A DNA stretch of 64,000 bases, taken from Bugulina stolonifera. Its lineage: Eukaryota; Bryozoa; Gymnolaemata; Cheilostomatida; Bugulidae. The DNA is taken from contig OW285189.1 in the NCBI GenBank assembly GCA_935421135.1, forward strand, positions 12,731,072 to 12,795,071, written 5' to 3'. A program made the translations under genes and the position numbers. Positions 847-42,502 of this stretch are shown one piece after another. Below the pieces are notes generated by a model. The model had not been told where the DNA came from and searched no databases. It saw nothing but the letters and a program-made list of their open reading frames with translations. Positions within the stretch are counted from its first letter, which is position 1. Each line of letters opens with the position of its first letter.

Positions 847-888
847 TTGAGATTGGATAAAAAAAAGGGAGGAGTCAAGAAATGAGCA

Positions 889-925
889 GTTGTATAAAGG
901 GAGAGTGGGATCACAGTCTCAGCAT
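889..925 (+). promoter_or_regulatory. TATA promoter of the OB-fold gene, copy 1
   Basis: TATAAA at 893-898 is followed 28 bases later by an initiator-like TCAGCA with the A at 921, about 60 bases before the ATG. The same spacing is kept in copy 2 (TATAAA 26616-26621) and copy 3 (minus strand, 35250-35245). Confidence 0.6.
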
Positions 926-981
926 TCAAAGTTCAGCACATCACTACTGTACAGCTACACTACTACAACAGTACATTATCA

Positions 982-2302: not shown

Positions 2303-2309
2303 GGCAAAA

Positions 2310-2745: not shown

Positions 2746-2755
2746 CATCACACAC

Positions 2756-3288
2756 CATTACTCTAACCCGTATTTTCCTTCGCTTCACCCTACTCCAGCC
2801 GACGGTCCGCCCGCGAGGGTAGCGACGGGTCGTTGGGGCGGGAGAGCGGGGGAGGGGCGGGGGATGGGCGGGGGGACGGCGGCGTGGGGCCACGGCTGGA
2901 CTCGCGAACGAGAACCGCAGCGAGGCGGAGGGCGAGGCGGAGGGGTTTGGGGTGGGGAGGGGCGGGGACGGGTGGAGGGAGGACGGGTGAGGTTCGCGGG
3001 GCGGGGGGGCGCGCGCGTACGCGCGCGCCTCCTCGCCCGAGCCGTGGGACCGGGCGAGGGGTTTGCTCTTTAGACTGGGTTCTACGGAACAGCCGATGAG
3101 GTTTTTGAAACCCCACCCGCGATCGGGGGGTAGGTTCTAGGGCTTTGCACATAGAGTGAGGTTTAGGGAAAGGGAGGGGGCGAGAGGACGGGTGGGGTGG
3201 TCGTCCGCCCGGGGAGTTTTTGGATCTAGGGCTAATAAGACGCGGAAATGACCGGGTGTCTGTGCAGATCTGCACTGACTATACTACT
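2756..3288. repeat. GC-rich terminal inverted repeat, copy 1 right end
   Basis: This ~533-bp GC-rich block matches the TIRs of the two complete copies. It includes a perfect 20-bp alternating purine-pyrimidine palindrome at 3009-3028 and, near the tip, the palindrome GTGCAGATCTGCAC. The terminal ACTACT is a tandem triplet. Confidence 0.9.
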
Positions 3289-18544: not shown

Positions 18545-19319
18545 GTGATGGCCAGAGCCATTGAGTAGAGAGTTATGCTTTCCTATAGGCCATATATTAG
18601 ACACCGCATAGTTCTAAACAAACAGGCCACGCCCACATTTGGTCAAGCTTATTCATATATATTACAATGTAATGGCCATGTGCTGATTTTGTAAGCTTGT
18701 GCTAATTCACATTTTTAAGGGCTTTTATGACAACTGAGCCACAAATGCCCTTTCTCATAATACAGAGCACCTCTTAGGCTACAACATGATTATTTTACTT
18801 TCTCAAAAAAGTAAATAAAGCTCCACTTACAACTTGTTTAACTTCTGAAATTGACATTGCTTGTTGGTTTCACAAGTGGTGTGTGAAAGCAGGTTTGAGC
18901 ACATCATTAACTGAATGACCTAGGACACCTTTTGTTATTAAAGAACCAGATTATTCAATGTCTTTGTGAATGAGAGTGTGAATCTGATGATTTTCTGACC
19001 CGTGGCCCCTAAACACAACACTTTAACGTGGCTGCCCAATAGCAGAGCCAATTGAGGGGCCACCAAGCTCCTAGTGCTGGATATTGTTATAGTTTGATAT
19101 GGCACAGAGATAAAACTTTCTTTGGGACAAAAACCTCTAATTAATTGACTGGACTCGAACCCACGTCCTTTCAGGTAACTTGCGTTATTGCTGCAAGATG
19201 CCCTAGTTCTCTTTCACTATGCAACAAATGCAAATGTCATTGTGCAAACAATAGTTTATGTTTTTAGAAGTGATAGAACACATGTATTAAAATTCTCTTG
19301 TTATATCATTCTGTGTACT

Positions 19320-19862
19320 AGTAGTATAGTCAGTGCAGATCTACACAGACACCCGGCCCTTTCCGCGTCGTATTAGCCCTAGATCCAAAAACTCCCCGGG
19401 CGGACGACCACCCCACCCGTCCTCTCGCCCCTCCTCTCCCCTAAACCTCACTCTATGTGCAAAGCCCTAGAACCTACTCCCCCCCATCGCGGGTGGGGTT
19501 TCAAAAACCTCATCGGCTGTTCCGCGGAACCCAGTCTAAAGAGCAAACCCCTCGCCCCGTCCCACGGCTCGGGCGAGGGGGCGCGCGCGTACGCGCGCGC
19601 CCCCCCGCCCCGCGAACCCCACCCGTCCTCCCTCCACCCGTCCCCGCCCCTCCCCACCCCTCCCCACCCCAAACCCCTCCGCCTCGCCCTCCGCCTCGCG
19701 GCGGTTCTCGTTCGCGAGTCCAGCCGTGGCCCCACGCCGCCCTCCCCCCGCCCATCCCCCGCCCCTCCCCCGCCCTCCCGCCCCAACGACCCGTCGCGAC
19801 CCTCGCGGGCGGACCGTCGGCTGGAGTAGGGTGAAGCGAAGGAAAATACGGGTTAGAGTAAT
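19320..19862. repeat. Left TIR of copy 2
   Basis: A ~543-bp GC-rich terminal repeat, inverted at 28472-29015. It contains the 20-bp alternating palindrome at 19581-19600. Confidence 0.9.
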
Positions 19863-19898
19863 GATAGGCTACACCCGTGCGGAGTGCCCGTGCAGAGT

Positions 19899-19920
19899 TT
19901 ACGACGCTGACTATACTACT
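19899..19920 (-). repeat. Inner TIR-like motif, copy 2
   Basis: Just inside the TIR, the minus strand reads AGTAGTATAGTCAGCG, repeating the first 14 bases of the element tip before diverging. The same motif lies at 41911-41926 in copy 3, at the polymerase end only. Confidence 0.75.
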
Positions 19921-20269
19921 ATAAAAAACTTACCGAGTGGTGGTGGTGGTGTTTCCGGATGATTTCTTCGCCGGGGACTGTTGAGACTGAACTGGTCGGG
20001 GTGACACCGCACTCGCGCGCTCCTCCGTTCGAGCGCCCCCGGACCTTCGATGAAAGACTCGCGTCTTAACCCTCATTTTCCCCGGACCCTCCCCTAGGGA
20101 AATCGCCCGTCCCCGTGACGAGCGGCGAGAGAAAGTGAAGGCGGTGGCTCTTCCGCGCTTCAAACCGTAGACTTCGCGAGGAGGTTAGCCGACGACATCA
20201 TCGCTCGGAGGGGTAGAAATAGAAATAGATAAACGGGATAGATGGATGCTTGTCTTCTCATCGCCATCG

Positions 20270-20337
<68 letters not shown>

Positions 20338-20593
20338 CAAATAGACCCGCCTCTACGATGATGTCGTTGACTCGCCACCAATTTCTTTGACCACCGCGTC
20401 CACTTTCCCCCGGGTAGCAAACTCCGATAGGGAGAGAGCGCATCGTGCGCGTGCGATGTCACCCCCCACCTACGAATGAAGACAATAGAAGAAATGTGAA
20501 CTGATAAGGGGTGAGTATGAGCGGAAGCTGCGCTAGTATCGTCTACCCCTTTGGTTTGGAGAGGTAAATGGTTTTTAATGTATTAGCTAGTGT
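19921..20593 (-). other. Variable region between polymerase and TIR, copy 2, with (CAT)n repeat
   Basis: It contains a CAT/ATG trinucleotide run (about 20264-20332), a GC-rich segment, and an open frame on the minus strand (19930-20163) without an ATG start that differs from copy 3 by many amino-acid changes. An acceptor-like pyrimidine tract plus AG (minus strand, near 20475) lies downstream of the polymerase stop. I see no convincing gene. Confidence 0.45.
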
Positions 20594-20648
20594 TTTATTG
20601 CTCGGTTTTAAGGCTACAACCGGTAAACCCTCCGTTTTGAGGACGGAG
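20594..20648 (-). terminator. Polymerase 3' signals: hairpin and AATAAA, copy 2
   Basis: On the minus strand a CTCCGT...ACGGAG stem-loop (20648-20630) is followed by AATAAA (20599-20594), ~120-180 bases after the polymerase stop. The same arrangement is found in copy 3 at 41144-41198. Confidence 0.55.
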
Positions 20649-20772
20649 ACCCCTTACAATAGAGAGTGAATGTGAAAAAAATTATACGGGTATATGTACA
20701 AGGGTTATGATGCACTGTTCGTTTACTCTCCAATTTATCGAATGAAGTAGTCTCATCTCCGAGAAATCAGTA

Positions 20773-23700
20773 CTAGCATTCTATAGGACTCGTACTCACC
20801 CCGTCTTCTGCAACCTTCCGCTTACCATAGAAGTAGGTGAGTCCGGTCTTTAGCTGGGTGTAGCTATACGTTTGGTTTCCTCTTCTGATAAAACCCCGAT
20901 TGTCCCCTCTCACCGACTCCCCTGTCCTGAGCACGGAGAGGAACTTCTCTTTGGTTAGGGCGTTTCCTCTTTTGTTTAGTCCTTTGCTGCTATACTTGCT
21001 ATCACCATCAGCGGACCAGCAAAAGTATGTTTTTGAGTTGAGCGCGATGACCCCCTCTCCCCGAAACTCCTCCTTAAACAGGCCGGGGGTTCGTGTTTCG
21101 TATCGTTGCACCTTCTCACAACATTCCCTCATCTCCCACTCTTGACCAAGCACCTTGGTCGTGATAAAGTCTTCCTTGTGCCTATCGCAGAAGGGTCTGG
21201 GAAACCATCTACCATATTCTCTGTAGAACTCTTCTTTTTTATCTTTTCGGATGACCTCATCTATACTACGAGCACTCAGAGCCATGTAAGCGCTATCCGT
21301 GTCCATTTCTACGTACTCAAAGTCCTCTCTGCTGACGAATCTGTGAAAATAAAACGGACGGGTTGTAGGGGGGGGGGGGTTGGGGTTGACACCAAAGAAT
21401 AAATAGAGAAGGATTTGATAAAATCTTTGTATAGTCTAGTTCTACTTACCTATCCATAAAGTCGTAGTAGAATTCTAGCATTCTCAACTTGGCTCTCTGG
21501 AGGATAACGAATCCTACGACAGATGGAACATCCATTCGAATCTAAAAGAAAGAAAGAGAGAGAGAGAGTTTACCCTACCACTCAGAAAAAGTTTCGTCAA
21601 ATCAAGAATCAAAATAAAAAAAAAAAAAGATTGTCAACACTTGCCTTTTTCTTGTGAAGCTCTATCTCAAAGTAGTTTTCATCAACTTCGTTTAGACTAG
21701 AAAAGTGCCTACTCCTCACTTTGACAGCCGCCTCCTCTACTGTCTCCACATACTTGACAGTCTTATGTTTCTCTTTATTTGTTATGGTCTTTCCGTAGGC
21801 TGAATTCCCAACGAGCTTGCTGGTGCTGGCCAAGAGGGCCAGGTCGGGGTTCACATCCCCACCTCTTCTTGCGTCTGAGACCGAAGAACCAAAGTCTTTG
21901 TAGATGGCTCGTGGGATAAAGTGAACAAACTGATAGATCCTGGTAATTATCAAACCTTGATCTAGATACCATCTAGCCAGATCGGAGAGTAGTGTGATTC
22001 GCTCGCCAAAAAGACTCCCCACGAGCATTCGCTGAGGTCTCTTCAAGAATCCGTTCTGTTCGGCAAAAGCGCGCATGTGTTCGCTAAGGTGTTCTCTTCC
22101 CACGTTTATATTCTTGAAAATAGGTGCCATCTCAGAGAACTTCGCTTTTAGCTCTTCGGGTACGGAAATGTCACACTCCACTAAACCATAGTACTCTCCA
22201 CTACGAATGTTATTGATTATCTTATCGAGGTTGACGTAACCCCTCTCCGGATAGAGAGAAGAAAAGAAGATGGCGAGAAATGTCCTAACTTCTACATCCG
22301 AACGAACTCGCGCTTCCCACTCACACTGCCGAGTGGTGATGAGCTTATAGCCTAGAGCCTTGATGTAATCTTCTTTCCTTGCAGTGTCCACCCGGAGCTC
22401 TTCATTCGTCATGTTTCTGACACCTTTTCCGTTCCCTCCTAGCTCGCACTCGTGCCCATGCCAGTAGCAACCGTGGAATTGGTACACCGTCCGACTCTGT
22501 TCGCTATAACCATCCACTGGTAGGTTGTGACAGCCTATCCTCATTTCTCCTCCATTCTGTTGGTGAAGGATGACCTCTCCTCTCTTCCACGATTGGAACT
22601 CTAACCAACCATGCGCCACTTTGCTGAACTTTTTAATAGGTTCTAGAGCAAAGCCTCGGCTCTCTAGCCTCCGCCTGGGATAACCCGTAGGCATATTCCC
22701 CATCATACAGTATAGGTAGAGGGCGTTGGCATCAACTCCCAGAATGGACCTACAGGGTTTTGCGGATGTGCCATACATCTTCTCTCGAATAGAGGTCACT
22801 CCAACTTCATGATGTCTGTGAAAGATAATGCTTGGCCCTCCCACGAGGTTATCGCGAAGAGTATGGTACAGACTTTTGCTCTCCTCATCGAACAGACATA
22901 TGGGTTGCGAGTTGCAAAGTTCGTCTCGGAGAGACATTAACCTATGCAGCGGAAGAGCGGCTTGTGGAGGAGAGTAGCCATAAGGTCGGGCCTCCACCTC
23001 CATAAACAACCATCTGATAGCCAAGCCTGGAAGCGAGATTGCGGATTTCAACATGTCAATACCCTTTTGTCGATAGATAGAGCTCTGACGTGCAATGGCC
23101 TCGATGAATGGGGCCACATCGAGGTTGTTGTACCAGATGAGAAAATCCCTGAACGTTTCCATGTTCTCTCTTTCCCACACGACCTGACAGTGGTGATAAT
23201 CTTGCTCGCTCAATTCTTGCTGAGTCAGCGAGTTGAAAAAACTCTCTCGGGGAGGGAGTCCATAATAATCCAACCTTCTCAGGGAATCTACCCAGTCGTA
23301 AGGAAAGAATCCCTTACTCTCTGACACGCCAAATGCCTTCAAGTATTTGGAGTAGTTGAATCCCGGTGCGATAAAGTTGCATATGTCAAGGAACCTAAAA
23401 CGTCTACTCTCCACGCAGGACATACTGTTAACACGCTTAACGATGAAGACAAAATCTTCTCCCTCCTCCTCTTGTAGAGAGCGAAGCAAAGGTCCCTTTA
23501 GTATATTTAGGTCATACTTTTGTGAGTTGAAACCAACCACCGGAACGCTGGAGATGTGCTGTTCTAACTCTCTTTCTAATCCGGAGAGACCGGACTTCAC
23601 CCTGTAAGTCGAGACGTTAGAGAACTTTTCGTCAGCAAAGGCTTCTTCTCTATCCGCCCGATCCGCAAGGAAAGTAGAGAGTCGCTTGCGTACATCCCGG

Positions 23701-25444
23701 AATCTTTCTCCGAACAAATCTCCTGCCACGTCAGCAATCTTTGCTATGTAGTGGACGAATTGACGAATGCACTTCGTTCCATCCTTGCTGTCGACACTCC
23801 TCACAAAGCACTTGGCCTGCTCAAACCCCGGGACGTTAGAACATACAGATATGCTCAGTAACTCGTGTCTTGCACTAAAAGTCATTGTGGAGGTGTTAGT
23901 TTGTAGGTTGTCTTTTGGCATGAAGCATTCAATATCATAGGTGATATAGTAGGGGTAGTATAAGAGGTCGGGGTTCACCACCTCTATTCCCGCCACTCGC
24001 TTGAGTTTTGTGAATATGGTTGGCGGGGGTCCAAACGTTCCACCAGGGAAAACAAACACCGATGCTTCCTCTGGCGAGCACTTATGTCGCCGTAGGCTGG
24101 ACAAACGTGTGAAAGCGCCATCGCACAACTTGCAGGTGAAACATCTGGCAAACAAATCAACATTCTTTATCCAGCTGAAGTGGTTTTCGTACATGTTGAC
24201 AAAGAGTTTACGGGCTTTGTTTCGTGCCCCAGATGACCAAACTATCGGAGCTACCCCCTCATCAGTTAGGCAGAAGACTATTATAGATATGTCAAAATGA
24301 TCTTCCAAGGCCAGCAGATCACTCGCGCCCACCCCGGGAAAGTCTGACAAAGTTGATGAGGGTGGGGAAGAAGATCTAGATTGTCTCATGTATTGTTTAA
24401 ACAAGCGATGTGTTGTGGTCTGAGAGGGGCGATGACAGCAACATCCCTTCTTTGGGTCGCAGTTACAGTCATACATCATGGCCAAACATCTAAAGAAACA
24501 CAATTTGTCTGGGTAGGGACGGGCACCTCCTCTGGACCAAAAGTCTACATCTAGTGCTATCACATGTCGGTTGTTAAGTATGTAGTCTGGGAGTTTGCTC
24601 ACTACACCACCCACCTTGCCAATCTCTAGGAGTTTATAGATGTAGAATGTCAAATTTGCAATGTGACGTAAAACCCAAGCGGTGTTCGGTCTCCTTTGTG
24701 CTGACCTCTCTCTCAAGTCGAGCTCCTGCACAGATTCGCAAAACTCTCTCATCTCATTCTCTGCTCTGATCAGTCTTGGCTTGGGGAAGAACGCGGCATT
24801 GTTGCTTGATGAGTGAAAGTAGCGCAACTCTCCACTGGTCTTATGCTCGAGGATGACTCCAGCGCTACAGTTAATCTTCACAGTACAAGGTACTCTCTTC
24901 CACATCGCTCTCAATTTAGTCCACACCTCTTCATCTCCTTCATCTTCACATTCCCCTCTCCACACTCGAACGTTGAGAATGTCTTCTACAGGACGAGAGT
25001 GTATTGTGGACCTGATCGAGCTCCAATAGCGGGCTAGTAGCACCCCCATCTCATCCCCCTCTTCAGCTGTTGGAGGTTTGGACCAGAAAACATCATCAAA
25101 CTTCTCTGCATCCCCCTCATCTTTTTCCGCCTTGGCCTCGCTATGAAATCGTCTCATGTGATGACCTAGCTTTCTCCTCCCATCAAAACATCCGCCACAA
25201 ACCGGGCACTTGTGTGGGTGAGCCTGTGCATGCATTCTCTTCGTGTGCCTGTCTAGAGAAAACGCTGTTTTGAGAACCAGACCGCATAGTTGACAAGTGT
25301 GCTCGGCCTGACGAGAGCTCTCCCCCCCTATAAAAATACAAAATAGTAGGGTGTAAGTTATTCTTTTACCTCATACTACTATTAGCAATCCACAATTGTT
25401 ACCAACTACCTCATTTAGCACTAACCTTTTTTACTTGTTGACAT
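20773..25444 (-). CDS. polB: Family-B DNA polymerase with N-terminal zinc fingers, copy 2
   Basis: Four exons on the minus strand: 25444-25426, 25327-21645, 21541-21450 and 21340-20773, giving about 1453 residues. N-terminal C2H2 fingers (CQLCGLVL..., CPVCGGCFDG...) come first. They are followed by an N-L/K-L-C-F-F-R-C-L-A region with a third finger-like CKLCDGAF, then 3'-5' exonuclease motifs YDIECF, FNSQKYD and YNNLDV. Polymerase motif A is VDANALYLY, an inserted FHGCYWHG segment resembles a Vsr-like endonuclease fold, motif B is NSAYGKT and motif C is MDTDS. It would replicate the element. The intron after the large exon begins GC (AAG|GCAAGT) instead of GT. The frame ends ...DGVSTSPIEC. 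An alternative spliced C-terminus is possible. No stop or frameshift is seen. Confidence 0.88.
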
Positions 25445-25790
25445 CTCTGATCAGGTGCTGACTAGTAGGTAAGTGTCTCTGTTTAGTCTCCCTATAAAAA
25501 ATATATAGTAGTAGGGTGTAAGTTAATTTTTTTTGTTTTTGGCTCAATAGCGTTATATACAATAGACACTTCACAATTGCTGCCGATTACCCTATTTAGC
25601 ACTAACCTTATGTTGTACTTGTTGACATCTCTGATCAGGTGCTGACTAGTAGGTAGCTGTCTCTGTTTACTCTCACTCTGTTGACTAGAGGCTGATTGTT
25701 CATACTGCTAGAGTGAGAAACTCATACCTTAAATAGTAGTATTCAGTGGGCGGAGTCTAACCATTTCCCCACCCTTGGCAATACCACCCC
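25420..25790 (-). promoter_or_regulatory. Polymerase leader with duplicated first exon, copy 2
   Basis: On the minus strand an upstream copy of the first-exon sequence starts ATGTCAACAAGTACAACATAA, a 6-codon open frame ending in TAA. The true first exon, ~177 bp downstream, starts ATGTCAACAAGTAAAAAAG and is spliced in frame to 25327. A TATTTAAG motif lies further upstream beside the array. Confidence 0.6.
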
Positions 25791-26570
25791 GATGTGAATC
25801 CGAAGCCTCCCGATGTGATTCCGAAGCTTCCCGATGCATCCCGATGTGATTCCGAAGCTTCCCGATGCATCCCGATGTGAATCCGAAGCTTCCCGATGCA
25901 TCCCGATGTGATTCCGAAGCCTCCCGATGCATCCCGATGTGATTCCGAAGCTTCCCGATGCATCCCGATGTGAATCCGAAGCTTCCCGATGCATCCCGAT
26001 GTGATTCCGAAGCTTCCCGATGCATCCCGATGTGAATCCGAAGCTTCCCGATGCATCCCGATGCATCCCGATGTGATTCCGAAGCCTCCCGATGCATCCC
26101 GATGCACCCCGATGTGAATTGACACATCGGGACACATCGGGATGCATCGGGAAGCTTCGGAATCACATCGGGATGCATCGGGAAGCTTCGGAATCACATC
26201 GGGATGCATCGGGAAGCTTCGGATTCACATCGGGATGCATCGGGAAGCTTCGGAATCACATCGGGATGCATCGGGAAGCTTCGGAATCACATCGGGATGC
26301 ATCGGGAAGCTTCGGAATCACATCGGGATGCATCGGGAAGCTTCGGATTCACATCGGGATGCATCGGGAAGCTTCGGAATCACATCGGGATGCATCGGGA
26401 AGCTTCGGATTCACATCGGGATGCATCGGGAAGCTTCGGAATCACATCGGGATGCATCGGGATGCATCGGGAAGCTTCGGATTCACATCGGGATGCATCG
26501 GGAGGCTTCGGATTCACATCGGGATGCATCGGGAGGCTTCGGATTCACATCGGGGTGCATCGGGACACAT
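25791..26570. repeat. Palindromic 31-bp minisatellite, copy 2
   Basis: About 10 units lie on the polymerase side and about 14 inverted units on the OB-fold side, meeting near 26115. The units are the same as in copy 1 (GAAGCTTC, GATGCATC and AATCACATC/ATTCACATC variants). The unit number differs from the other two copies. Confidence 0.92.
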
Positions 26571-26615
26571 TGGGATTGGATAATAAAAAGGGAGGAGTCA
26601 AGAAATGAGCAGATG

Positions 26616-26644
26616 TATAAAGGGAGAGTGGGATCACAGTCTCA
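26616..26644 (+). promoter_or_regulatory. TATA promoter of the OB-fold gene, copy 2
   Basis: TATAAA at 26616-26621 with the A of an initiator-like TCAGCA 28 bases on (26644), as in copies 1 and 3. Confidence 0.6.
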
Positions 26645-26704
26645 GCATTCAAAGTTCAGCACATCACTACTGTACAGGAACACTACTACAATAGTACATT
26701 ATCA

Positions 26705-28019
26705 ATGGATACTGACAACATAGTCCAGAACCAAGAAGAGTTATTTGCGGGCTTAACGGACTCACAAATGGATGGAATTATTGAAGAAGAAGAGTGCAGT
26801 CAGAAGAGGAAAGAAGAGGTGGATGCGTTAAAAGAGGCACGGAAGAAGGGGAAAATAATAGGAGTGGGGAGTCTTGCCCGAAAGGATCTTTCTAACATGG
26901 CGGACTCTCCGTCCTCCCCGGAGCGGGCCTCGGATAGGGGCGAGACCACAACAACCAAGAAGAGGAAGAACCCAAAAGGAGATGAAATCTGTGCTAAGAA
27001 AAAAAAGAAACCCCAGGCGATTGTAATATCAGATGATGATGATGATGGCCACGGAGCCGATACGGCTACGGAAGAAATGGATGGTGGTGAGACGACGAAG
27101 GGAAAAAAAGCTACCAAGTCCCCTTGCAAGGGGAAGAAAAAGAGCGGGGGACTAAGCCTGGAGAAAGCTCGTGCAGTGGCGGCAACCCTAATGTAAGTAG
27201 CCCTATTCGTATATCTATAAATTACCGTACTATCTTTCTCCCGTTTAACCACTTTGTCGGATCTATATACACCACTTTCATTATTGTAGGAGCATGGGAG
27301 CGGAGAAGAGGAGCTCTCTGCAGACGACGGTGAAGCTGTCGGAGCTAGAGCCAGGAACTGTGCTAGAAGTGAGTGGAGGTTCGGTGGTTGAAACGGCATT
27401 CGGAAAAGCATTCTTAGCCAGGGCAAGCTATGTGGATGACAAGGGGATGAGACATTGCATCAGCTTTCACACCAACATTCGTCACGCCATGCCCAAGCTA
27501 GCGGATGTCAAAGAAGAGGAGCTAAAGGACCTTACCCTTCCACCTAGGATCATGGTGTACTTGGGACAGCAGGAGACCGCTAAAGGACAAAACACATTCA
27601 ACCGTATCGAGAGCGTGTGCTCCCTGCCAGGAGCAGCCATGAAAAAGCTGGCCGGTGACTTGAGAAAGAAGACCTTGGTCCAGTTGGAAGAATTTTTTCG
27701 AGTGCAAACGCTATCTTCCTTCCCCGTTGGTTCTGTGCTGGTGGTGACCGCGCTCCGACCCACATACGTCCCAAGATGCGGTGATGGTGATAATGCGAGC
27801 AACTCCATTGCCACCTACGAGTGCCGGATTGGAAACGAAGAAAAAAAGGGAGAAGTCTTCCTTCCGGGACGTCTGGCAGTTTCGATGAAAGAGCTCCTCC
27901 CCTCCGTGATGGTGTACAAGGGACAGAAGACTTCCAAGAGCGGGAGAACATTCTACGATTGTGCCATTCTAGACTCCATCCTCGGCGAGCGTCTCCTCCC
28001 CGCCACTGCACAGTTTTGA
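26705..28019 (+). CDS. Element-encoded OB-fold-like DNA-binding protein, copy 2
   Basis: Exons 26705-27192 and 27290-28019 code for 405 residues, two fewer than copies 1 and 3 because of one Asp and one Thr lost from the repetitive tail. The two-repeat C-terminal part is nearly unchanged (for example E for D and T for A substitutions). Strong conservation of the folded part and drift of the tail suggest constraint on the domain. The inferred role is single-strand DNA binding with the element polymerase. Confidence 0.72.
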
Positions 28020-28029
28020 GGCAAAAACT

Positions 28030-28460
28030 TTTGTCATTCACACTCATTCGTGTCTACTTATCAATTGATTTTATATTATTACTCTCAAACTCGTGTATCG
28101 TTAGCCTTACTCATATTTTTCATAGTCGTATATCGGTTTTTATCGATTGATTTTATATTATTACTCTCAAACGTATTGAAAATTAAAACAAACTCGTGTA
28201 TCATTACCCTTACTCATATTTTTCATAGTCGTATATCAAGTTTTTTATCGCTTGATTTTATATTATTACTCTCAAACGAATTGAAAATTAAAACAAACTC
28301 GCGTATCATTACCCTTACTCATATTTTTCGTAGTCACATATCAAGTTTTTTATCGATTGATTTTATATTATTACTCTCAAACGCATTGAAAATTAAAACA
28401 AACTCGTGTATCATTACCCTGACTCATATTTTCATAGTCGTATATCATCTATTCTAGAAT
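28030..28460. repeat. AT-rich ~105-bp tandem repeats, copy 2
   Basis: About four units homologous to those of copy 1, with slightly different sequences (TCGATTGATTTTATATTATT variants). They lie between the OB-fold gene stop and the TIR. Confidence 0.85.
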
Positions 28461-28471
28461 ACATCACACAC

Positions 28472-29015
28472 CATTACTCTAACCCGTATTTTCCTTCGCT
28501 TCACCCTACTCCAGCCGACGGTCCGCCCGCGAGGGTCGCGACGGGTCGTTGGGGCGGGAGGGCGGGGGAGGGGCGGGGGATGGGCGGGGGGAGGGCGGCG
28601 TGGGACCACGGCTGGACTCGCGAACGAGAACCGCCGCGAGGCGGAGGGCGAGGCGGAGGGGTTTGGGGTGGGGAGGGGTGGGGAGGGGCGGGGACGGGTG
28701 GAGGGAGGACGGGTGGGGTTCGCGGGGCGGGGGGGCGCGCGCGTACGCGCGCGCCCCCTCGCCCGAGCCGTGGGACGGGGCGAGGGGTTTGCTCTTTAGA
28801 CTGGGTTCCGCGGAACAGCCGATGAGGTTTTTGAAACCCCACCCGCGATGGGGGGGAGTAGGTTCTAGGGCTTTGCACATAGAGTGAGGTTTAGGGGAGA
28901 GGAGGGGCGAGAGGACGGGTGGGGTGGTCGTCCGCCCGGGGAGTTTTTGGATCTAGGGCTAATACGACGCGGAAAGGGCCGGGTGTCTGTGTAGATCTGC
29001 ACTGACTATACTACT
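28472..29015. repeat. Right TIR of copy 2
   Basis: Inverted match to 19320-19862. It includes the 20-bp alternating palindrome at 28735-28754 and the tip ...GACTATACTACT. Confidence 0.9.
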
Positions 29016-30202
29016 TGTACTGTTTCCATCACACCAGAAATTACTCTGCAAAGCAAGCATTCAGGAACTGACAAGTGCAGTCTTGAAGAATAAAAACCAT
29101 CTACATATTTACATGTACAATTATGTAATTACTAATTAATAAAATACTCAAAAAGCAAGTTTGAAGGCTATGATGCGCTTCGGGAAAGTTATCATTGCTA
29201 AAATATATAAGACTGTCTACCAATTAGATTCTGTAACACTTTGTTGGCACTAGGGCTCTCTACGGCCACAACTGTCAGAATACATTGCAGGGGCAAATAC
29301 ATGCTTGCTTATGAACATTATACAGCCTATAGATTTATTGCATCCATGGAATCATCTCTGGGCCCAGGAATGTTGTGAAAAAGCACAAATAAAGCAGCAA
29401 CCAAGAAGAGATGTACCACTTAGTTCTGTACATATTGCGTGTATATTGTGTGTATATAAGGGGAGATTATGCTGAATGTTGTGTGTATAATTATTGTGTG
29501 TATATAAGAGAAGATTATGCTGAATTACACGGAAGATAGAGATGGAAAGTGGTATCCTAAGTTTCTCAAACCCTGAAAATGAGTAAATGCAGATAACTTA
29601 GCAAATGACATCTACATTAAGTCATGTTACTTTTCCTTGCTGTCTTGTAATGTTGGCATGTGTACATTATATGAATTAGTTTATGAAATTGTACAAGTAG
29701 GCTATCATTTTCAAAAATAATGCTGGCTGCACAACGTGACTTGTGTATTATTCAAGTTTGTAAGTAAGATCAAAATATGTTAGTCATAAATAATGGCACA
29801 TTGGCACCCAAGTCATTAGTTTTATTATCACAGCTGGTAAAAACATTTTCTGTGGTCACAATACTCCTGGCAAAATCCACTCATTGTAAAGTAATTAGTG
29901 TTGTCTTTCTCTTGGCAAATGGAAATCAAAGAAAACTGCCACTAGTGGGTGAGGTGCAGAAATAAACATATTAAAAGTTGTATGGGATAAAAGCCCAGTT
30001 TCTAAGCTATCTTTTGATATATTATTCATCAATATAGCATTATTCCATATCAAATAAGCTGGAAATAAAATTGTCAAGTCAGATTTTCCAATGATAATCA
30101 ATGAGACCATATGCCTTTGTTTGGAACTATGCATATCTGTTTCCGGCTCAGTTGTCACAACTCTCTACTCAATGGCTCTGGTGATGGCTGTGTGGTTGTG
30201 AG

Positions 30203-32840: not shown

Positions 32841-33387
32841 AGTAGTATAGTCAGTGCAGATCTGCACAGACACCCGGTCATTTCCGCGTCTTATTAGCCC
32901 TAGATCCAAAAACTCCCCGGGCGGACGACCACCCCACCCGTCCTCTCGCCCCCTCCCTTTCCCTAAACCTCACTCTATGTGCAAAGCCCTAGAACCTACC
33001 CCCCGATCGCGGGTGGGGTTTCAAAAACCTCATCGGCTGTTCCGTAGAACCCAGTCTAAAGAGCAAACCCCTCGCCCGGTCCCACGGCTCGGGCGAGGGG
33101 GCGCGCGCGTACGCGCGCGCCCCCCCCCCCGCCCCGCGAACCCCACCCGTCCTCCCTCCACCCGTCCCCGCCCCTCCCCACCCCTCCCCACCCCAAACCC
33201 CTCCGCCTCGCCCTCCGCCTCGCTGCGGTTCTCGTTTGCGAGTCCAGCCGTGGCCCCACGCCGCCGTCCCCCCGCCCATCCCCCGCCCCTCCCCCGCTCT
33301 CCCGCCCCAACGACCCGTCGCGGCCCTCGCGGGCGGACCGTCGGCTGGAGTAGGGTGAAGCGAAGGAAAATACGGGTTAGAGTAATG
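32841..33387. repeat. Left TIR of copy 3
   Basis: A ~547-bp GC-rich repeat, inverted at 41968-42502. It contains the 20-bp alternating palindrome at 33101-33120 and GTGCAGATCTGCAC near the tip. Confidence 0.9.
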
Positions 33388-33394
33388 GTGTGTG

Positions 33395-33830
33395 ATGTAT
33401 TCTAGAATAGATGATATACGACCATGAAAAATATGAGTCAGGGTAATGATACGCGAGTTTGTTTTAATTTTCAATACGTTTGAGAGTAATAATATAAAAC
33501 TAAGTGATAAAAAACCTGATACACAACTATGAAAAATATGAGTAAGGGTAATGATACAGGAGTTTGTTTTAATTTTCAATACGTTTGAGAGTAATAATAT
33601 AAAACTAAGTGATAAAAAACTTGATACACAACTATGAAAAATATGAGTAAGGGTAATGATACACGAGTTTGTTTTAATTTTCAATACGTTTGAGAGTAAT
33701 AATATAAAATCAATCGATAAAAACCGATATACGACTATGAAGAATATGAGTAAGGCTAACGATACACGAGTTTGAGAGTAATAATATGAAATCAATTGAT
33801 AAGTAGACACGAATGAGTGTGAATGACAAA
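33395..33830. repeat. AT-rich ~105-bp tandem repeats, copy 3
   Basis: About four units between the TIR and the end of the OB-fold gene, reverse-oriented relative to copies 1 and 2. Confidence 0.85.
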
Positions 33831-33840
33831 AGTTTTTGCC

Positions 33841-35161
33841 TCAAAACTGTGCAGTGGCGGGGAGGAGACGCTCGCCGAGGATGGAGTCTAGAATGGCACA
33901 ATCGTAGAATGTTCTCCCGCTCTTGGAAGTCTTCTGTCCCTTGTACACCATCACGGAGGGGAGGAGGTCTTTCATCGAAACTGCCAGACGTCCCGGAAGG
34001 AAGACCTCTCCCTTTCTTTCTTCGTTTCCAATCCGACACTCGTAGGTGGCAATGGAGTTGCTCGCATTATCACCATCACCGCATCTTGGGACATATGCGG
34101 GTCGGAGCGCGGTCACCACCAGCACAGAACCAACGGGGAATGAAGATAGCGTTTGCACTCGAAAAAATTCTTCCAACTGGGCCAAGGTCTTCTTTCTCAA
34201 GTCACCGGCCAGCTTTTTCATGGCTGCTCCTGGCAGGGAGCACACGCTCTCGATACGGTTGAATGTGTTTTGTCCTTTAGCGGTCTCCTGCTGTCCCAAG
34301 TACACCATGATCCTAGGTGGAAGGGTAAGGTCCTTTAGCTCCTCTTCTTTGACATCCGCTAGCTTGGGCATGGCGTGACGAATGTTGGTGTGAAAGCTGA
34401 TGCAATGTCTCATCCCCTTGTCATCCACATAGCTTGCCCTGGCTAAGAATGCTTTTCCGAATGCCGTTTCAACCATCGAACCTCCACTCACTTCTAGCAC
34501 AGTTCCTGGCTCTAGCTCTGACAACTTCACCGTTGTCTGCAGAGAGCTCCTCTTCTCCGCTCCCATGCTCCTACAATAACGAAAGTGGTGTATATAGATC
34601 CGACAAAGTGGTTAAACGGGAGAAAGATAGTACGGTAATTTATAGATATACGAACAGGGCTACTTACATTAGGGTTGCCGCCACTGCACGAGCTTTCTCC
34701 AGGCTTAGTCCCCCGCTCTTTTTCTTCCCCTTGCAAGGAGACTTGGTAGCTTTTTTTCCCTTCGTCGTCGTCTCACCACCATCCATTTCTTCCGTAGCCG
34801 TATCGGCTCCGTGGCCATCATCATCATCATCATCTGATATTACAATCACCTGGGATTTCTTCTTTTTCTTAGCACAGATTTCATCTCCTTTTGGGTTCTT
34901 CCTCTTCTTGGTTGTTGTGGTCTTGCCCCTATCCGAGGCCCGCTCCGGGGAGGACGGAGAGTCCGCCATGTTAGAAAGATCCTTTCGGGCAAGACTCCCC
35001 ACTCCTATTATTTTCCCCTTCTTCCGTGCCTCTTTTAACGCATCCACCTCTTCTTTCCTCTTCTGACTGCACTCTTCTTCTTCAATAATTCCATCCATTT
35101 GTGAGTCCGTTAAGCCCGCAAATAACTCTTCTTGGTTTTGGACTATGTTGTCAGTATCCAT
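33841..35161 (-). CDS. Element-encoded OB-fold-like DNA-binding protein, copy 3
   Basis: Minus-strand exons 35161-34668 and 34570-33841 give 407 residues, almost identical to copy 1 (for example GK for GE in the tail and SM for SV in the first repeat). The Lys/Asp-rich tail and two OB-like repeats are intact. The TATA motif is at 35250-35245 with the initiator A at 35222. Confidence 0.72.
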
Positions 35162-35298
35162 TGATAATGTACTATTGTAGTAGTGTAGCTGTACAGTAGT
35201 GATGTGCTGAACTTTGAATGCTGAGACTGTGATCCCACTCTCCCTTTATACAACTGCTCATTTCTTGACTCCTCCCTTTTTTTTATCCAATCCCAATG

Positions 35299-36008
35299 TG
35301 ACCCGATGCACCCCGATGTGAATCCGAAGCCTCCCGATGTGAATCCGAAGCCTCCCGATGCATCCCGATGTGAATCCGAAGCCTTCCGATGCATCCCGAT
35401 GTGAATCCGAAGCTTCCCGATGCATCCCGATGTGATTCCGAAGCTTCCCGATGCATCCCGATGTGAATCCGAAGCTCCCCGATGCATCCCGATGTGATTC
35501 CGATGCTTCCCGATGCATCCCGATGTGAATCCGAAGCTTCCCGATGCATCCCGATGTGAATCCGAAGCTTCCCGATGCATCCCGATGTGATTCCGAAGCT
35601 TCCCGATGCATCCCGATGTGATTCCGAAGCTTCCCGATGCATCCCGATGTGATTCCGAAGCTTCCCGATGCATCCCGATGTGTCCCGATGTGTCAATTCA
35701 CATCGGGGTGCATCGGGATGCATCGGGAGGCTTCGGAATCACATCGGGATGCATCGGGAAGCTTCGGATTCACATCGGGATGCATCGGGAAGCTTCGGAA
35801 TCACATCGGGATGCATCGGGAAGCTTCGGATTCACATCGGGATGCATCGGGAAGCTTCGGAATCACATCGGGATGCATCGGGAGGCTTCGGATTCACATC
35901 GGGGTGCATCGGGAGGCTTCGGATTCACATCGGGAAGCTTCGGATTCACATCGGGGTGCATCGGAAGGCTTCGGATTCACATCAGGGGGCTTCGGATTCA
36001 CATCGGGG
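35299..36008. repeat. Palindromic 31-bp minisatellite, copy 3
   Basis: About 12 units on the OB-fold side and about 10 on the polymerase side meet near 35690. The polymerase-side end has shortened units (GGGAGGCTTCGGATTCACATC without the GATGCATC part). Confidence 0.92.
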
Positions 36009-36049
36009 TGGTATTGCCAAGGGTGGGGAAATGGTTAGACTCCGCCCAC

Positions 36050-36343
36050 TGAATACTACTATTTAAGGTATGAGTTTCTCACTTTAGCAGTATGAACAAT
36101 CAGCCTCTAGTCAACAGAGTGAGAGTAAACAGAGACAGCTACCTACTAGTCAGTGCGTGAACAGAGATGTCAACAAGTAGAACATAAGGTTAGTGTTAAA
36201 TGGAGTAATTGGCAGCAATTGTGAAGTGTTTATTGTATAAAATGCTATCAAGCTAAAAAATGACTCACACCCTACTGCTATATATTTTTATAAGGAGACT
36301 AAACAGAGACACCTACCTTCTAGCCAGCACATGATCAGCAGAG
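36050..36343 (+). promoter_or_regulatory. Polymerase leader with upstream open frame, copy 3
   Basis: TATTTAAG at 36060-36067 is followed by a decayed copy of exon 1 at 36167 (ATGTCAACAAGTAGAACATAA, stop after six codons) and then the real ATG at 36344. The two ATGs are 177 bp apart in near-duplicate sequence. Confidence 0.6.
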
Positions 36344-39300
36344 ATGTCAACAAGTGAAAAAGAAGGTTAGTGCTAAATGAGGTATTTGGTAGCAATTGTG
36401 GATTGTTTATTGTTTATGTAGTGTGAAGTAAAAGAATAATAACTTACACCCTACCATTTTTTTTTATAGGGGGAGAGACCTCTCGTCAGGTCGAGCACAC
36501 CTGTCAACTATGCGGTCTGGTTCTCAGAACAGCGTTTTCTCTAGACAGGCACACGAAGAGAATGCATGCACAGGCTCACCCGCACAAGTGCCCCGTTTGT
36601 GGCGGATGTTTTGATGGGAGGAGAAAGCTAGGTCATCACATGAGGCGATTTCATAGCGAGGGTAAGGTGGAAAAAGATGAGGGAGGTGCAGAGAAGTTTG
36701 ATGATGTTTTCTGGTCTAAACCGCCAACAGCTGAAGAGGGGGATGAGATGGGGGTGCTACTAGCCCGCTATTGGAGCTCCATCAGGTCCGCAATACACTC
36801 TCGTCCCGTGGAAGATATTCTAAATGTTCGAGTGTGGAGAGGGGAAGGTGAAGACGAAGGAGATGAAGAGGTGTGGACTAAGTTGAGAGCAATGTGGAAG
36901 AGAGTGCCTTGTACTGTGAAGATTAACTGTAGCGCTGGAGTCATCCTCGAGCATAAGACCAGTGGAGAGTTGCGCTACTTTCACTCATCGAGCAACAATG
37001 CCGCATTCTTCCCCAAACCAAGACTGATCAGAACAGAGAATGAGATGAGAGAGTTTTGCGAATCTGTGCAGGAGCTCGACTTGAGAGAGAGGTCAGCACA
37101 AAGGAGACCGAATACCGCTTGGGCTTTACGTCACATTGCGAATCTGACATTCTACATCTATAAACTCCTAGAGATTGGCAAGGTGGGCGGTGTAGTGAGC
37201 AAACTCCCAGACTACATACTTAACAACCGACACGTGATAGCACTAGACGTAGACTTTTGGGCTAGAGGAGGTGCGCGTCCCTACTCAGACAACTTGTGTT
37301 TCTTTAGATGCTTGGCCATGATGTATGACTGTAACTGCGACCAAAAGAAGGGATGTCGTTGCCGTCGCCCCTCTTGCACCACAACACATCGCTTGTTTAA
37401 ACAATACATGAGACAAACTAAATCTTCTTCCCCACCCTCATCAACTTTGTCAGACTTTCCCGGGGTGGACTCGAGTGATCTACTGGCCTTGGAAGATCAT
37501 TTTGACGTATCTATAATAGTCTTCTGTCTAACTGATGAGGAGGTAGCTCCGATAGTTTGGTCATCCGGGGCACGAAACAAAGCCCATAAACTCTTCGTCA
37601 ACATGTACGAAAAACACTTCAGCTGGATAAAGAATGTTGATTCGTTTGCCAGATGTTTCACCTGCAAGCTGTGCGATAGCGCGTTTACACGCTTGTCTAG
37701 CCTACGACGACACAAGTGCTCGCCAGAAGAAGCATCAGTGTTCGTTTTCCCTGGTGGAACGTTTGGACCCCCGCCAACCATATTCACAAAACTCAAGCGA
37801 GTGGCGGGAATAGAGGTGGTGAACCCCGACCTCTTATACTACCCCTACTATATCACCTATGATATCGAATGCTTCATGCCAAAAGACAACCTACCAACTA
37901 ACACCACCACGATGACTTTTAGTGCAAGACACGAGCTACTGAGCATATCCGCGTGTTCTAACGTCCCAGGGTTTGAGCGAGCCAAGTGTTTTGTGAGGAG
38001 CGTCGACAGCAAGGATGGGACGAAGTGCATTCGTCAATTCGTCCAATACATAGCAAAGATTGCTGACGTGGCAGGAGATTTGTTCGGAGAAAGATTCCAG
38101 GATGTACGCGAGCGACTCTCTACCTTCCTCGCGGATCGGGCGGATAGAGAAGAGGCCTTTGCTGACGACAAGTTCTCTAACGTCTCGACTTACAGGGTGA
38201 AGTCCGGTCTCTCCGGATTAGAAAGAGAATTAGAACAGCACATCTCCAGCGTTCCGGTGGTCGGCTTCAACTCGCAAAAGTATGACCTAAATATACTAAA
38301 GGGGCCTTTACTTCGCTCTCTACAAGAGGAGGAGGGAGAAGATTTTGTTTTCATCGTTAAGCGTGTTAACAGTATGTCCTGCGTGGAGAGTAGACGTTTT
38401 AGATTCCTTGACATATGCAACTTTATCGCACCAGGCTTCAACTACTCAAAATACTTGAAGGCATTTGGCGTGTCAGAGAGTAAGGGATTCTTTCCTTACG
38501 ACTGGGTAGATTCCCTGAGAAGGTTGGATCATCACGGACTCCCTCCCCGAGAGAGTTTTTTCAACTCGCTGACTCAGCAAGAATTGAGCCAGCAAGATTA
38601 TCACCACTGTCAGCTCGTGTGGGAAAGAGAGAACATGGAAACGTTCAGGGATTTCCTCATCTGGTACAACAACCTCGATGTGGCCCCATTCATCGAGGCC
38701 ATTGCACGTCAGAGCTCTATCTATCGACAAAAGGGTATTGATATGTTGAAATCTGCAATCTCGCTTCCAGGCTTGGCTATCAGATGGTTGTTTATGGAGG
38801 TGGAGGCCCGACCTTACGGCTACTCTCCTCCGCAAGCCGCTCTCCCGCTGCATAGGTTAATGTCTCTCCGAGGCGAACTTTGCAACTCACAACCCATATG
38901 TCTGTTCGATGAGGAGAGCAAAAGTCTGTACCACACTCTCCGTGATAACCTCGTGGGAGGGCCAAGCATCATCTTTCACAGACATCATGAAGTTGGAGTG
39001 ACCTCTATTCGAGAGAAGATTTATGGCACATCCGCAAAACCCTGTAGGTCCATTCTGGGAGTCGATGCCAACGCTCTCTACCTATACTGCATGATGGGGA
39101 ATATGCCTACGGGTTATCCCAGGCGGAGGCTAGAGAGCCGAGGCTTTGCTCTGGAACCCGTTAAAAAGTTCAGCAAAGTGGCGCATGGATGGTTAGAGTT
39201 CCAATCGTGGAAGAGAGGAGAGGTCATCCTTCACCAACAGAATGGAGGAGAAATGAGGATAGGCTGTCACAACCTACCGGTGGATGGTTATAGCGAACAG

Positions 39301-41008
39301 AGTCGGACTGTGTACCAATTCCACGGTTGCTACTGGCACGGACACGAGTGCGAGCTAGGAGGGAATGGAAAAGGTGTCAGAAACATGACGAATGAAGAGC
39401 TCCGGGTGGACACTGCGAGGAAAGAAGATTACATCAAGGCTCTAGGCTATAAGCTCATCACCACTCGGGAGTGTGAGTGGGGAGCGCGAGTTCGTTCGGA
39501 TGAAGAGGTTAGGACATTTCTCTCCGTCTTCTTTTCTTCTCTCTATCCAGAGAGGGGTTGTGTCAACCTCGATAAAATAATCAACAGTATTCGTAGTGGA
39601 GAGTACTACGGTTTAGTGGAGTGTGACATTTCCGTACCCGAAGAGCTAAAAGCGAAGTTCTCTGAGATGGCACCTATTTTCAAGAATATAAATGTGGGAA
39701 GAGAACACCTTAGCGAACACATGCGCGCTTTTGCCAAACAGAACGGATTCTTGAAGAGACCTCAGCGAATGCTCGTGGGGAGTCTTTTTGGCGAGCGAAT
39801 CACACTACTCACCGATCTGGCTAGATGGTATCTAGATCAAGGTTTGATAATTACCAGGGTCTATCAGTTTGTTCACTTTATCCCACGAGCCGTCTTCAAA
39901 GACTTTGGTTCTTCGGTCTCAGACGCAAGGAGAGGGGGAGATCTGGACCCTGATCTGGCCCTCTTGGCCAGCACCAGCAAGCTCGTTGGGAATTCAGCCT
40001 ACGGAAAGACCATAACAAATAAAGAGAAACATAAGACTGTCAAGTATGTAGAGACAGTAGAGGGGGCGGCCGTCAAAGTGAGGAGTAGGCACTTTTCTAG
40101 TCTCAACGAAGTCGATGAAAACTACTTTGAGATAGAGCTTCACAAGAAAAAGGTAAGTGTTGACAATCTTTCTTACTTTGACTCTTGATTTGACAAAACT
40201 TTTTCCGAGTGGAAGGGTGAATTTTCTCTCTCTCTCTCTCTCTTTCTTTTAGATTCGAATGGATGTTCCATCCGTCGTAGGATTCGTCATCCTCCAGAGA
40301 GCCAAGTTGAGGATGCTAGAGTTCTACTACGACTTTATGGATAGGTGAGTAGAACTAGACTATACAAAGATTTTATCAAATCCTTTTCTATTTATTCTTC
40401 GGTGTCAGCAACCTCTAACTCGCCCGATTTATTTTCACAGATTCGTCAGCAGAGAGGACTTTGAGTACGTAGAAATGGATACGGATAGCGCTTACATGGC
40501 CCTGAGTGCTCGCAATATAGATGAGGTCATCCGAAAAGATAAAAAAGAAGAGTTCTACAGAGAGTATGGTAAATGGTTTCCCAGACCCTTCTGCGATAGC
40601 CACAAGGGAGACTTTATCACAACCAAGGTGCTCGGGCAAGAGTGGGAGATGAGGGAATGTTGTGAGAAGGTGCAGCGATACGAAACACGAACCCCTGGTC
40701 TGTTTAAGGAGGAGTTTCGGGGGGAGGGGGTCATCGCACTCAACTCAAAAACTTACTTTTGTTGGTCCGCTGACGGCGATAGCAAGTATAGTAGCAAAGG
40801 ACTAAATAAAAGAGGAAACACCCTAACCAAAGAGAAGTTCCTCTCCGTGCTCAAAACAGGGGAGTCGGTGAGAGGAGACAATCGGGGTTTTATCAGAAGA
40901 GGAAATCAAACGTATAGCTATACCCAGCTAAAGACCAGACTCACCTACTTCTACGGTAAGCGGAAGGTTGCGGAAGACGGGGTGAGTACGAGTCCTATAG
41001 AATGTTAA
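36344..41008 (+). CDS. polB: Family-B DNA polymerase with N-terminal zinc fingers, copy 3
   Basis: Exons 36344-36365, 36470-40152, 40253-40344 and 40441-41008 join in frame to 1454 residues. The start is chosen because MSTSEKEG splices in phase to the exon holding the first C2H2 finger. Counting from the internal Met at 36562, the exonuclease motif YDIECF is near residue 434, FNSQKYD near 570, YNNLDV near 713, polymerase motif A VDANALY near 835, FHGCYWHG near 920 and NSAYGKT near 1143. The metal-binding MDTDS is in the last exon at 40475. The introns have consensus GT-AG borders. AATAAA is at 41193-41198. The family is that of Polinton-like and protein-primed polymerases common in animal genomes. 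Protein priming is inferred from the terminal triplet repeats. Confidence 0.9.
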
Positions 41009-41143
41009 TACTGATTTCTCGGAGATGAGACTACTTCATTCGATAAATCGGAGAGTAAACGAACAGTGCATCATAACCCTTGTATATATATATATATATA
41101 TCCGTATAATTTTTTTTCACATTCACTCTCTATTGTAAGGGGT

Positions 41144-41198
41144 CTCCGTCCTCAAAACGGAGGGTTTACCGGTTGTAGCCTTAAAACCGAGCAATAAA
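41144..41198 (+). terminator. Polymerase 3' signals: hairpin and AATAAA, copy 3
   Basis: CTCCGT (41144-41149) pairs with ACGGAG (41157-41162). AATAAA follows at 41193-41198. The arrangement is conserved in copy 2. Confidence 0.55.
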
Positions 41199-41454
41199 AC
41201 ACTAGCTAATACATTAAAAACCATTTACCTCTCCAAACCAAAGGGGTAGACGGTACTAGCGCAGCTTCCGCTCATACTCACCCCTTATCAGTTCACATTT
41301 CTTCTATTGTCTTCATTCGTAGGTGGGGGGTGACATCGCACGCGCACGATGCGCTCTCTCCCTATCGGAGTTTGCTACCCGGGGGAAAGTGGACGCGGTG
41401 GTCAAAGAAATTGGTGGCGAGTCAACGACATCATCGTAGAGGCGGGTCTATTTG

Positions 41455-41491
<37 letters not shown>

Positions 41492-41910
41492 GTGATGGTG
41501 ATGATGATGATGATGATGATGGTGATGGTGATGATGATGATGATGATGATGATGATGGTGATGATGATGGCGATGAGAAGACAAGCATCCATCTATCCCG
41601 TTTATCTATTTCTATTTCTACCCCTCCGAGCGATGATGTCGTCGGCTAACCTCCTCGCGAAGTCCACGGTTTGAAGCGCGGAAGAGCCACCGCCTTCACT
41701 TTCCCTCGCCACTCGTCACGGGGACGGGTGATTTCCCTAGGGGAGGGTCCGGGGAAAATGAGGGTTAAGACGCGAGTCTTTCATCGAAGGTCCGGGGGCG
41801 CTCGAACGGAGGAGCGCGCGAGTCCGGTGTCACCCCAACCAGTTCAGTCTCCACAGTTCCCGGCGAAGAAATCATCCGGAAGCACCACCACCACTCGGTA
41901 AGTTTCTTAT
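41199..41910 (+). other. Variable region between polymerase and TIR, copy 3, with (GAT)n repeat
   Basis: A GAT/ATG trinucleotide run at 41456-41570 is longer than in copy 2 and interrupted by GGT. A plus-strand open frame at 41671-41901, lacking ATG, ends in ACTCG|GTAAGT, a donor-like site. A good acceptor (TTCATTCGTAG) is at 41312-41322. An exon here could give the polymerase another C-terminus, but AATAAA lies before it. Confidence 0.45.
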
Positions 41911-41926
41911 AGTAGTATAGTCAGCG
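41911..41926 (+). repeat. Inner TIR-like motif, copy 3
   Basis: AGTAGTATAGTCAGCG repeats the element tip ~57 bp inside the right TIR border, in inverted sense relative to the outer right tip. Confidence 0.75.
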
Positions 41927-41967
41927 TCGTAAACTCTGCACGGGCACTCCGCACGGATGTAGCCTAT

Positions 41968-42502
41968 CATTACTCTAACCCGTATTTTCCTTCGCTTCAC
42001 CCTACTCCAGCCGACGGTCCGCCCGCGAGGGCCGCGACGGGTCGTTGGGGCGGGAGAGCGGGGGAGGGGCGGGGGATGGGCGGGGGGACGGCGGCGTGGG
42101 GCCACGGCTGGACTCGCAAACGAGAACCGCAGCGAGGCGGAGGGCGAGGCGGAGGGGTTTGGGGTGGGGAGGGGCGGGGACGGGTGGAGGGAGGACGGGT
42201 GGGGTTCGCGGGGCGGGGGGGGGCGCGCGCGTACGCGCGCGCCCCCTTGCCCGAGCCGTGGGACCGGGCGAGGGGTTTGCTCTTTAGACTGGGTTCTACG
42301 GAACAGCCGATGAGGTTTTTGAAACCCCACCCGCGATCGGGGGGTAGGTTCTAGGGCTTTGCACATAGAGTGAGGTTTAGGGAAAGGGAGGGGGCGAGAG
42401 GACGGGTGGGGTGGTCGTCCGCCCGGGGAGTTTTTGGATCTAGGGCTAATAAGACGCGGAAATGACCGGGTGTCTGTGCAGATCTGCACTGACTATACTA
42501 CT
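41968..42502. repeat. Right TIR of copy 3
   Basis: A ~535-bp inverted match to 32841-33387, with the 20-bp alternating palindrome at 42223-42242. The 42509-42937 flank is AT-rich with nothing recognised. Confidence 0.9.

Follow-up and report, generated by a model that had tools for sequence, protein, structure and literature searches.

A 64,000-nucleotide stretch of the genome of the bryozoan Bugulina stolonifera (assembly GCA_935421135.1, contig OW285189.1, positions 12,731,072 to 12,795,071 of the forward strand; hereafter, the window) contains a 9,696-bp mobile element, termed Element R copy A, which encodes a family-B DNA polymerase (PolB) and has Polinton-like ends. The question raised by this locus is how an element with a polymerase gene and no recognised integrase gene is inserted, and whether it is complete. 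The evidence indicates that the genes of a Polinton are likely distributed among two or more, probably three, linear pieces that were inserted separately: R, an integrase- and capsid-bearing element (V), and a third element (C).

Structure and gene content of Element R

The main features of R are listed below by window position, with TIR for terminal inverted repeat, TSD for target-site duplication and ORF for open reading frame.

19320..29015, no strand: Element R, copy A, 9,696 bp, delimited by TIRs and TSD; proposed polymerase piece of a split Polinton
19314..19319: left TSD, TGTACT
29016..29021: right TSD, TGTACT
19320..19863, plus strand: left TIR, 544 bp; its initial 18 bp, AGTAGTATAGTCAGTGCA, are identical in V and C elements
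28472..29015, minus strand: right TIR, with a single mismatch to the left TIR
21645..25235, minus strand: PolB main exon (ORF 21609-25235), with C2H2 fingers besides the exonuclease and palm motifs
21450..21541, minus strand: PolB middle exon, splice sites inferred via homologs
20773..21340, minus strand: PolB last exon, with motif C (DTDS)
27294..28019, plus strand: 241-residue ORF for a probable OB-fold single-stranded DNA (ssDNA)-binding protein
32841..42502, minus strand: second R copy (subfamily B), 94% identical to copy A, TSD TGTATT

Copy A runs from AGTAGT at 19320 to ACTACT at 29015, the AGTAGT triplet repeat being present at both ends, and its TIRs differ only at position 411. The first-pass annotation of this DNA, made from the letters alone, had placed an element at exactly these coordinates, with TIRs of about 540 bp starting with AGTAGT and a 6-bp duplication, and all of this was borne out.

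The family-B polymerase recognised at that stage was confirmed by a Pfam DNA_pol_B_2 match (E 2.1e-6, 27.4 bits, cut-off 25.8) and by conserved exonuclease, palm and motif B residues in an alignment with 15 homologs. The gene is intact on the minus strand. Its main exon contains the exonuclease residues D434/E436 (ExoI), N570/D575 (ExoII) and Y702/D706 (ExoIII) and the palm residues D835 (motif A) and K1140/N1144/Y1147 (motif B). An OTU-like domain, recognised at motif level, lies N-terminal of the polymerase; of its vOTU-like residues D243/C246/H352, H352 is invariant and D243 and C246 are nearly invariant in 16 sequences. A Vsr-like insert has four residues (D908, C923, H926 and C930) invariant in 16 sequences and matches a PHROG endonuclease (1.4e-4) and Pfam Vsr (0.0039, under the Pfam cut-off). 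An extra in-frame C2H2 finger is located upstream of the main exon at about 25236-25327, after a possible 3' splice site. The second gene, initially described as coding for a DNA-binding protein, specifies a probable OB-fold ssDNA-binding protein, judging by the likeness of its predicted model.

Altogether, 29 ORFs of at least 80 residues overlap copy A. Pfam was scanned with 24 of them, four of which were also compared with PHROGs; the other five are frames of the minisatellite or the right TIR. No integrase, recombinase, HUH or capsid family was detected by Pfam in these 24 of 29 ORFs. The Pfam matches were those of PolB, C2H2 and the Vsr-like part of the polymerase, and all the rest fell below the cut-off. 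Searches of copy A by tblastn gave nothing with the V integrase (best E 8.5) or with the capsid protein of V (best E 0.63), although a diverged capsid protein could evade both tblastn and the ORF scan. In agreement with the first reading, no integrase or capsid gene was found in R. It has no part with a known role in DNA integration, with the possible exception of the Vsr-like domain of PolB.

Shared ends and insertion behaviour

The genome searched comprised 234,951,659 bases in 27 contigs, about 31 kb shorter than the published assembly (30 scaffolds and 234,982,697 bp in the accessible part of PMC10213821). The tips of R and V are identical in all of the first 18 bases and in 30 of the first 34, and the terminal 18 bp are identical in all three types read. 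Beyond 33-45 bp, blastn gave no alignment between the R and V TIRs. The exact 18-mer occurs 678 + 693 times genome-wide (reversed control, 0). The 34-bp R tip was found, with up to 3 mismatches, 346 times in forward and 347 times in reverse orientation; because the reversed-pattern control gave 0 + 0, its repetition is not due to chance, and about 346 R elements carry the R tip. V-type tips numbered 356 + 358 with some mismatches allowed, and the two types together approximately equal the total of the 18-mer. A parallel is offered by adenovirus, whose minimal origin is approximately the terminal 18 bp and whose terminal triplet repeat functions in a slide-back step.

For each tip kind, the first 100 sites listed were used to compare insertions, and neighbours among them were paired. 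An exact 6-bp TSD was found in 31 of 33 R pairs and in all 39 V-type pairs. The motif NAYRTN was present at 35/100 R flanks and 42/100 V-type flanks, compared with 2.6% of window positions; this preference of R and V/C is weak, and no position differs between R and V-type targets (p 0.083-0.71), with an effective sample below 100 flanks since the two flanks of a single insertion are not independent. This match in TSD and target preference, which we rate as the strongest evidence, makes it well supported at the sequence level that one integrase, that of V, inserts both R and V.

V and C elements

At least 150 near-identical integrase genes are present in the genome on V elements of about 10-11 kb (10.1 kb for the copy read; of 12 paired elements, 11 measured 10.6-11.2 kb), and all 150 scored copies are free of internal stops. 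The V integrase matches Pfam rve (2e-11) and Chromo (1.2e-6). V also encodes an A32/FtsK-type packaging ATPase (PF04665, 5.8e-7, above the cut-off) and a double jelly-roll (DJR) major capsid protein. A protease candidate has African swine fever virus S273R as its best match (E 0.13) and no Pfam match; a protease and minor capsid proteins are probably encoded as well. No PolB match was found in V, for which one copy was read completely (as three stretches), another apart from its ends and eleven in part. No scored integrase match was present in 27 of 39 V-type pairs, the best 150 integrase matches having been scored. The V copy on C11 contains a gypsy-like long terminal repeat (LTR) retrotransposon (stretch positions 3647 and 6956) beginning with TGTAGTAGTATAACGG; the likeness of this start to a Polinton tip is perhaps due to chance.

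C elements were recognised among the 27 V-type pairs that lack a scored integrase match: two were covered in full, as two stretches apiece (9,564 and 9,021 bp), and one partly. The two covered in full have V-type TIRs with 92-95% identity to those of V, and at either end each matches the right end of V over about 0.84-0.91 kb; their interiors gave no alignment with V apart from minisatellite stretches. C carries a spliced ankyrin gene (PF00023, 1.1e-5; exons recorded unjoined) that looks, by eye only, I-kappa-B-related, and a Ser/Thr-rich ORF of 461-516 residues.

Distribution of polymerase and integrase genes

The gene lists used to locate integrase and OB-protein genes held the best 150 matches each, and an exception among lower-ranked copies is possible. 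Out of 72 paired elements, 12 contained a scored integrase match, 15 a scored OB match and none both. Only chance proximity was seen between the two genes, 6 of 150 integrase matches lying within 20 kb of an OB match (chance mean, 4.2). The initial 24 Mb of C1 contain 46 tip pairs, comprising 22 R-type (including one 40 bp long and one typed by its OB match) and 24 V-type, 10 of the latter with integrase; unpaired tips there were 8 of 100.

In total, 118 distinct tip pairs less than 20 kb apart were listed, against roughly 700 tip-bounded elements in the genome. As far as is known, PolB and integrase do not occur together in any of the 118. Lengths above 11.5 kb were found for five pairs, one of which is longer than 14 kb. 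For two of these five, all but about 1 kb at either end was read, and no PolB match was obtained in either. The longest, of 15.0 kb, is a C element plus an insertion; the 13.6-kb pair is V with added stretches derived from R and about 2.8 kb of further sequence. The first-pass annotation had pointed out that copies with integrase and capsid genes would make the two-gene elements deletion derivatives of ordinary Polintons; none of the 72 pairs is such a copy by its OB and integrase matches, and the only listed pair of more than 14 kb is the C element with an insertion, whose interior lacks a PolB match.

The 13.6-kb V element (C1:21455237 onward) has an exact TSD, and its R-derived stretches (read-stretch positions 1237-1545 and 4342-5441) flank the approximately 2.8 kb with ORFs; it is a recombinant or a nested insertion.

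A genome search with PF03175 gave 11 matches, seven of which belong to six copies of another PolB family. This family has PolB (95-101 bits, five whole matches) and an A32 ATPase on one element, together with a 388-residue ORF that is capsid-like by eye only and has no Pfam match. Its C1 copy (C1:4277966-4293138, about 15.2 kb) has inverted repeats that align over 579 columns at 96% identity. In the stretches read of a single copy, the R/V 18-mer was absent and no V integrase match rose above noise (best E 0.067). One-piece relatives are thus present in this genome and detectable by the methods used; none with an R/V tip was found. This search for an intact one-piece element with an R or V tip went by sizes and samples rather than by every copy. 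The four other PF03175 matches (24-29 bits; C1:22080281, C7:13185903, C4:2175281 and C10:9729434), two of them in 1,415-residue open frames, are possibly further PolB elements.

Genomic copies of R and selection

The copy number of R, which the first reading had proposed to establish, is given by the tip counts above, and the genes of R were well preserved among the copies scored. Among 340 first-look candidates for the OB protein, scoring of the best 150 showed 98-100% identity; the gene was free of internal stops in 146 of these, and the other four had one stop each. PolB gave 483 candidates, of which 38 were scored, all 100% identical after rounding and all stop-free. Between copies A and B, the ratio of nonsynonymous to synonymous divergence (dN/dS) was 0.13 for PolB over 1,196 codons, 0.06 for its last exon, and 0.22 for the OB gene, the last from few changes (7.0 synonymous, 5.0 nonsynonymous). 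The R PolB has thus been under purifying selection since subfamilies A and B split.

The synonymous divergence of PolB between the subfamilies was 0.16-0.27 (window 20776-25235 and its counterpart), while TIRs and non-coding parts differ by about 2-4%. PolB is thus more diverged than the TIRs, the non-coding parts or the OB gene, and this unevenness suggests mosaic descent.

Two shortened R-tip copies were noted. The 8,074-bp copy lacks the OB gene and 752 bp of PolB, and its right end is the inverted left 1.1 kb; such end copying is expected of linear molecules copied from their ends, this being a single case. The 2,791-bp copy has an OB match and is too short to hold PolB as well.

A probable division of the Polinton gene set and its alternatives

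R alone has the PolB, the OTU-like domain and the TIRs with 6-bp TSD of Polintons, and neither an rve integrase nor a DJR capsid protein was found in it. Lacking these two defining features, it should not be classed as a Polinton. R and V together have most of the gene content but not in one element, R being about 9.7 kb and V a separate 10.1-11.2 kb in the copies read and the sample listed, hence the term "split Polinton". Each type looks incomplete alone, and R and V jointly look like the Polinton gene set.

In the likely arrangement, R would supply PolB and the probable ssDNA-binding protein; V would supply the rve integrase, packaging ATPase, DJR capsid protein and probably the protease and minor capsid proteins; and C would contribute the ankyrin gene. 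The V integrase would cut and join the common tips, thereby inserting R, V and C. The R PolB and OB protein would copy all three, starting at their AGTAGT ends through protein priming that includes a slide-back step; we infer this copying in trans because no polymerase was found in V or C and the end of R is common to them. Packaging of the pieces by the V capsid is speculative. The first-pass suggestion that R depends on an integrase supplied by Polintons elsewhere is probably right insofar as V-type integrase elements exist, but incomplete, since V gave no polymerase; for this reason the dependence looks mutual. The other suggestion, a distinct class of self-replicating transposon, is unsupported for R as a stand-alone element, which has no known integration gene. 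Going further, and at somewhat less than even chances, the three types may constitute a living multipartite double-stranded DNA (dsDNA) virus of the Polinton/adintovirus kind, with linear replication, virion-plus-integration and accessory pieces that differ in their interiors but end in a common 18-bp replication/integration sequence, and with one kind each of polymerase, integrase and capsid.

Alternatively, R, V and C could be internal-deletion derivatives of a one-piece Polinton that is rare, unassembled or lost. Polintons are normally one-piece, and the 8,074-bp and 2,791-bp copies prove that deletion derivatives exist. A simple deletion would, however, retain the parental TIR, and the TIRs of R and V cannot be aligned past 33-45 bp. 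The longest listed pair, a C element that carries an insertion, gave no PolB match; high PF03175 scores occur only in the six copies of a separate one-piece family, and the 18-mer is absent from the stretches of the single copy read; and PolB is under purifying selection, the scored copies being free of internal stops in 38/38 cases for PolB, 150/150 for integrase and 146/150 for OB. This explanation is therefore unlikely.

Slightly less probable still is that R inserts itself by means of the Vsr-like domain, V and C being parasites that mimic its tip to use its polymerase. The insert is real, by its PHROG and Pfam matches, and has the four invariant residues. We know of no Vsr-kind endonuclease that makes integrase-like insertions, and R and V/C are alike in TSD length and target preference, V having its own rve integrase. 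That the tip is convergent, or borrowed between two independent families with related integrases, is very improbable: the remaining TIR sequence does differ and copies of each type insert unlinked, but 18 identical bases plus 12 of the next 16 exceed, in our judgement, what two families would have in common by chance, and neither family looks complete on its own, since R yielded no integrase and V no polymerase.

Comparison with known systems

Polintons have long TIRs and a 6-bp TSD and are about 15-20 kb long, with all genes in one element. Casposons share with the present elements a PolB, a separate integration enzyme and TIRs, but are prokaryotic, use a Cas1 integrase and are one piece. Polydnaviruses likewise have several dsDNA segments in an animal genome, but their particles are domesticated and replication-deficient and, to our knowledge, have no shared PolB/integrase system; we also know of no integrase in bidnaviruses.

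The closest likeness is to Polintons/Mavericks and adintoviruses, which in the available portions of PMC11071308 and PMC11071296 have a protein-primed PolB (pPolB) with an OTU-like N-terminus, an rve integrase with a chromodomain, an A32-type ATPase and a DJR capsid. The accessible text of PMC11071308 describes Polintons as one-piece elements. The present genes differ from that single genome in that PolB and the OB protein are on about 9.7 kb and the integrase and capsid on about 10-11 kb. Polinton-like viruses without pPolB have, as V does, a capsid module without pPolB; in the portion of PMC11071308 available, however, they have another replication protein and mostly no rve integrase, the reverse of V, which has no recognised replication protein. 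Bidnaviruses are small DNA viruses with an adintovirus-type PolB, some of them multi-segment, and differ in their parvovirus-type capsid, helicase and ssDNA genomes (PMC11071296, as far as available). No earlier report of a multipartite Polinton was found in the PMC literature searched.

If the division is true, the placement of replication and virion/integration functions on mutually dependent genomes with a short common end is a new organisation for the Polinton lineage, and it provides a natural test of a minimal protein-primed origin and integrase end. It might also explain PolB genes of the same family in other animals, should capsid genes not adjoin them.

Other features of the window and related repeats

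The remaining features of the window are as follows.

19907..19920, minus strand: internal inverted 14-bp copy of the tip, 43 bp past the inner end of the left TIR
25788..26565, no strand: minisatellite arrays with a 31-bp unit, the two halves oppositely oriented
26705..27196, plus strand: 163-residue acidic ORF upstream of the OB ORF
28034..28451, no strand: tandem array of a 105-bp unit (about 3.5-4 copies), located between OB gene and right TIR
1..3288, plus strand: third R copy, right part only (the window edge cuts the element), OB gene at 1577-2299

A family search with the 163-residue ORF gave none; it may belong to the OB gene as an upstream exon. An inverted 14-bp tip copy inside one TIR is retained by both R copies of the window (19907-19920 and 41911-41924) and is perhaps an old end left by an end-copying event. 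Minisatellite arrays occur in all three types (R, window 25788-26565; V, read-stretch about 2036-2540; C, read-stretch 2837-3906). The long arrays of C resemble those of R and V in style; V and C are about 65-70% alike, and partly alike with R. Facing R-like tips with almost nothing between them occur at 43660-43730 of the window (71 bp, one mismatch) and represent a miniature element or scar; a similar 40-bp facing-tip pair is located at C1:14505550.
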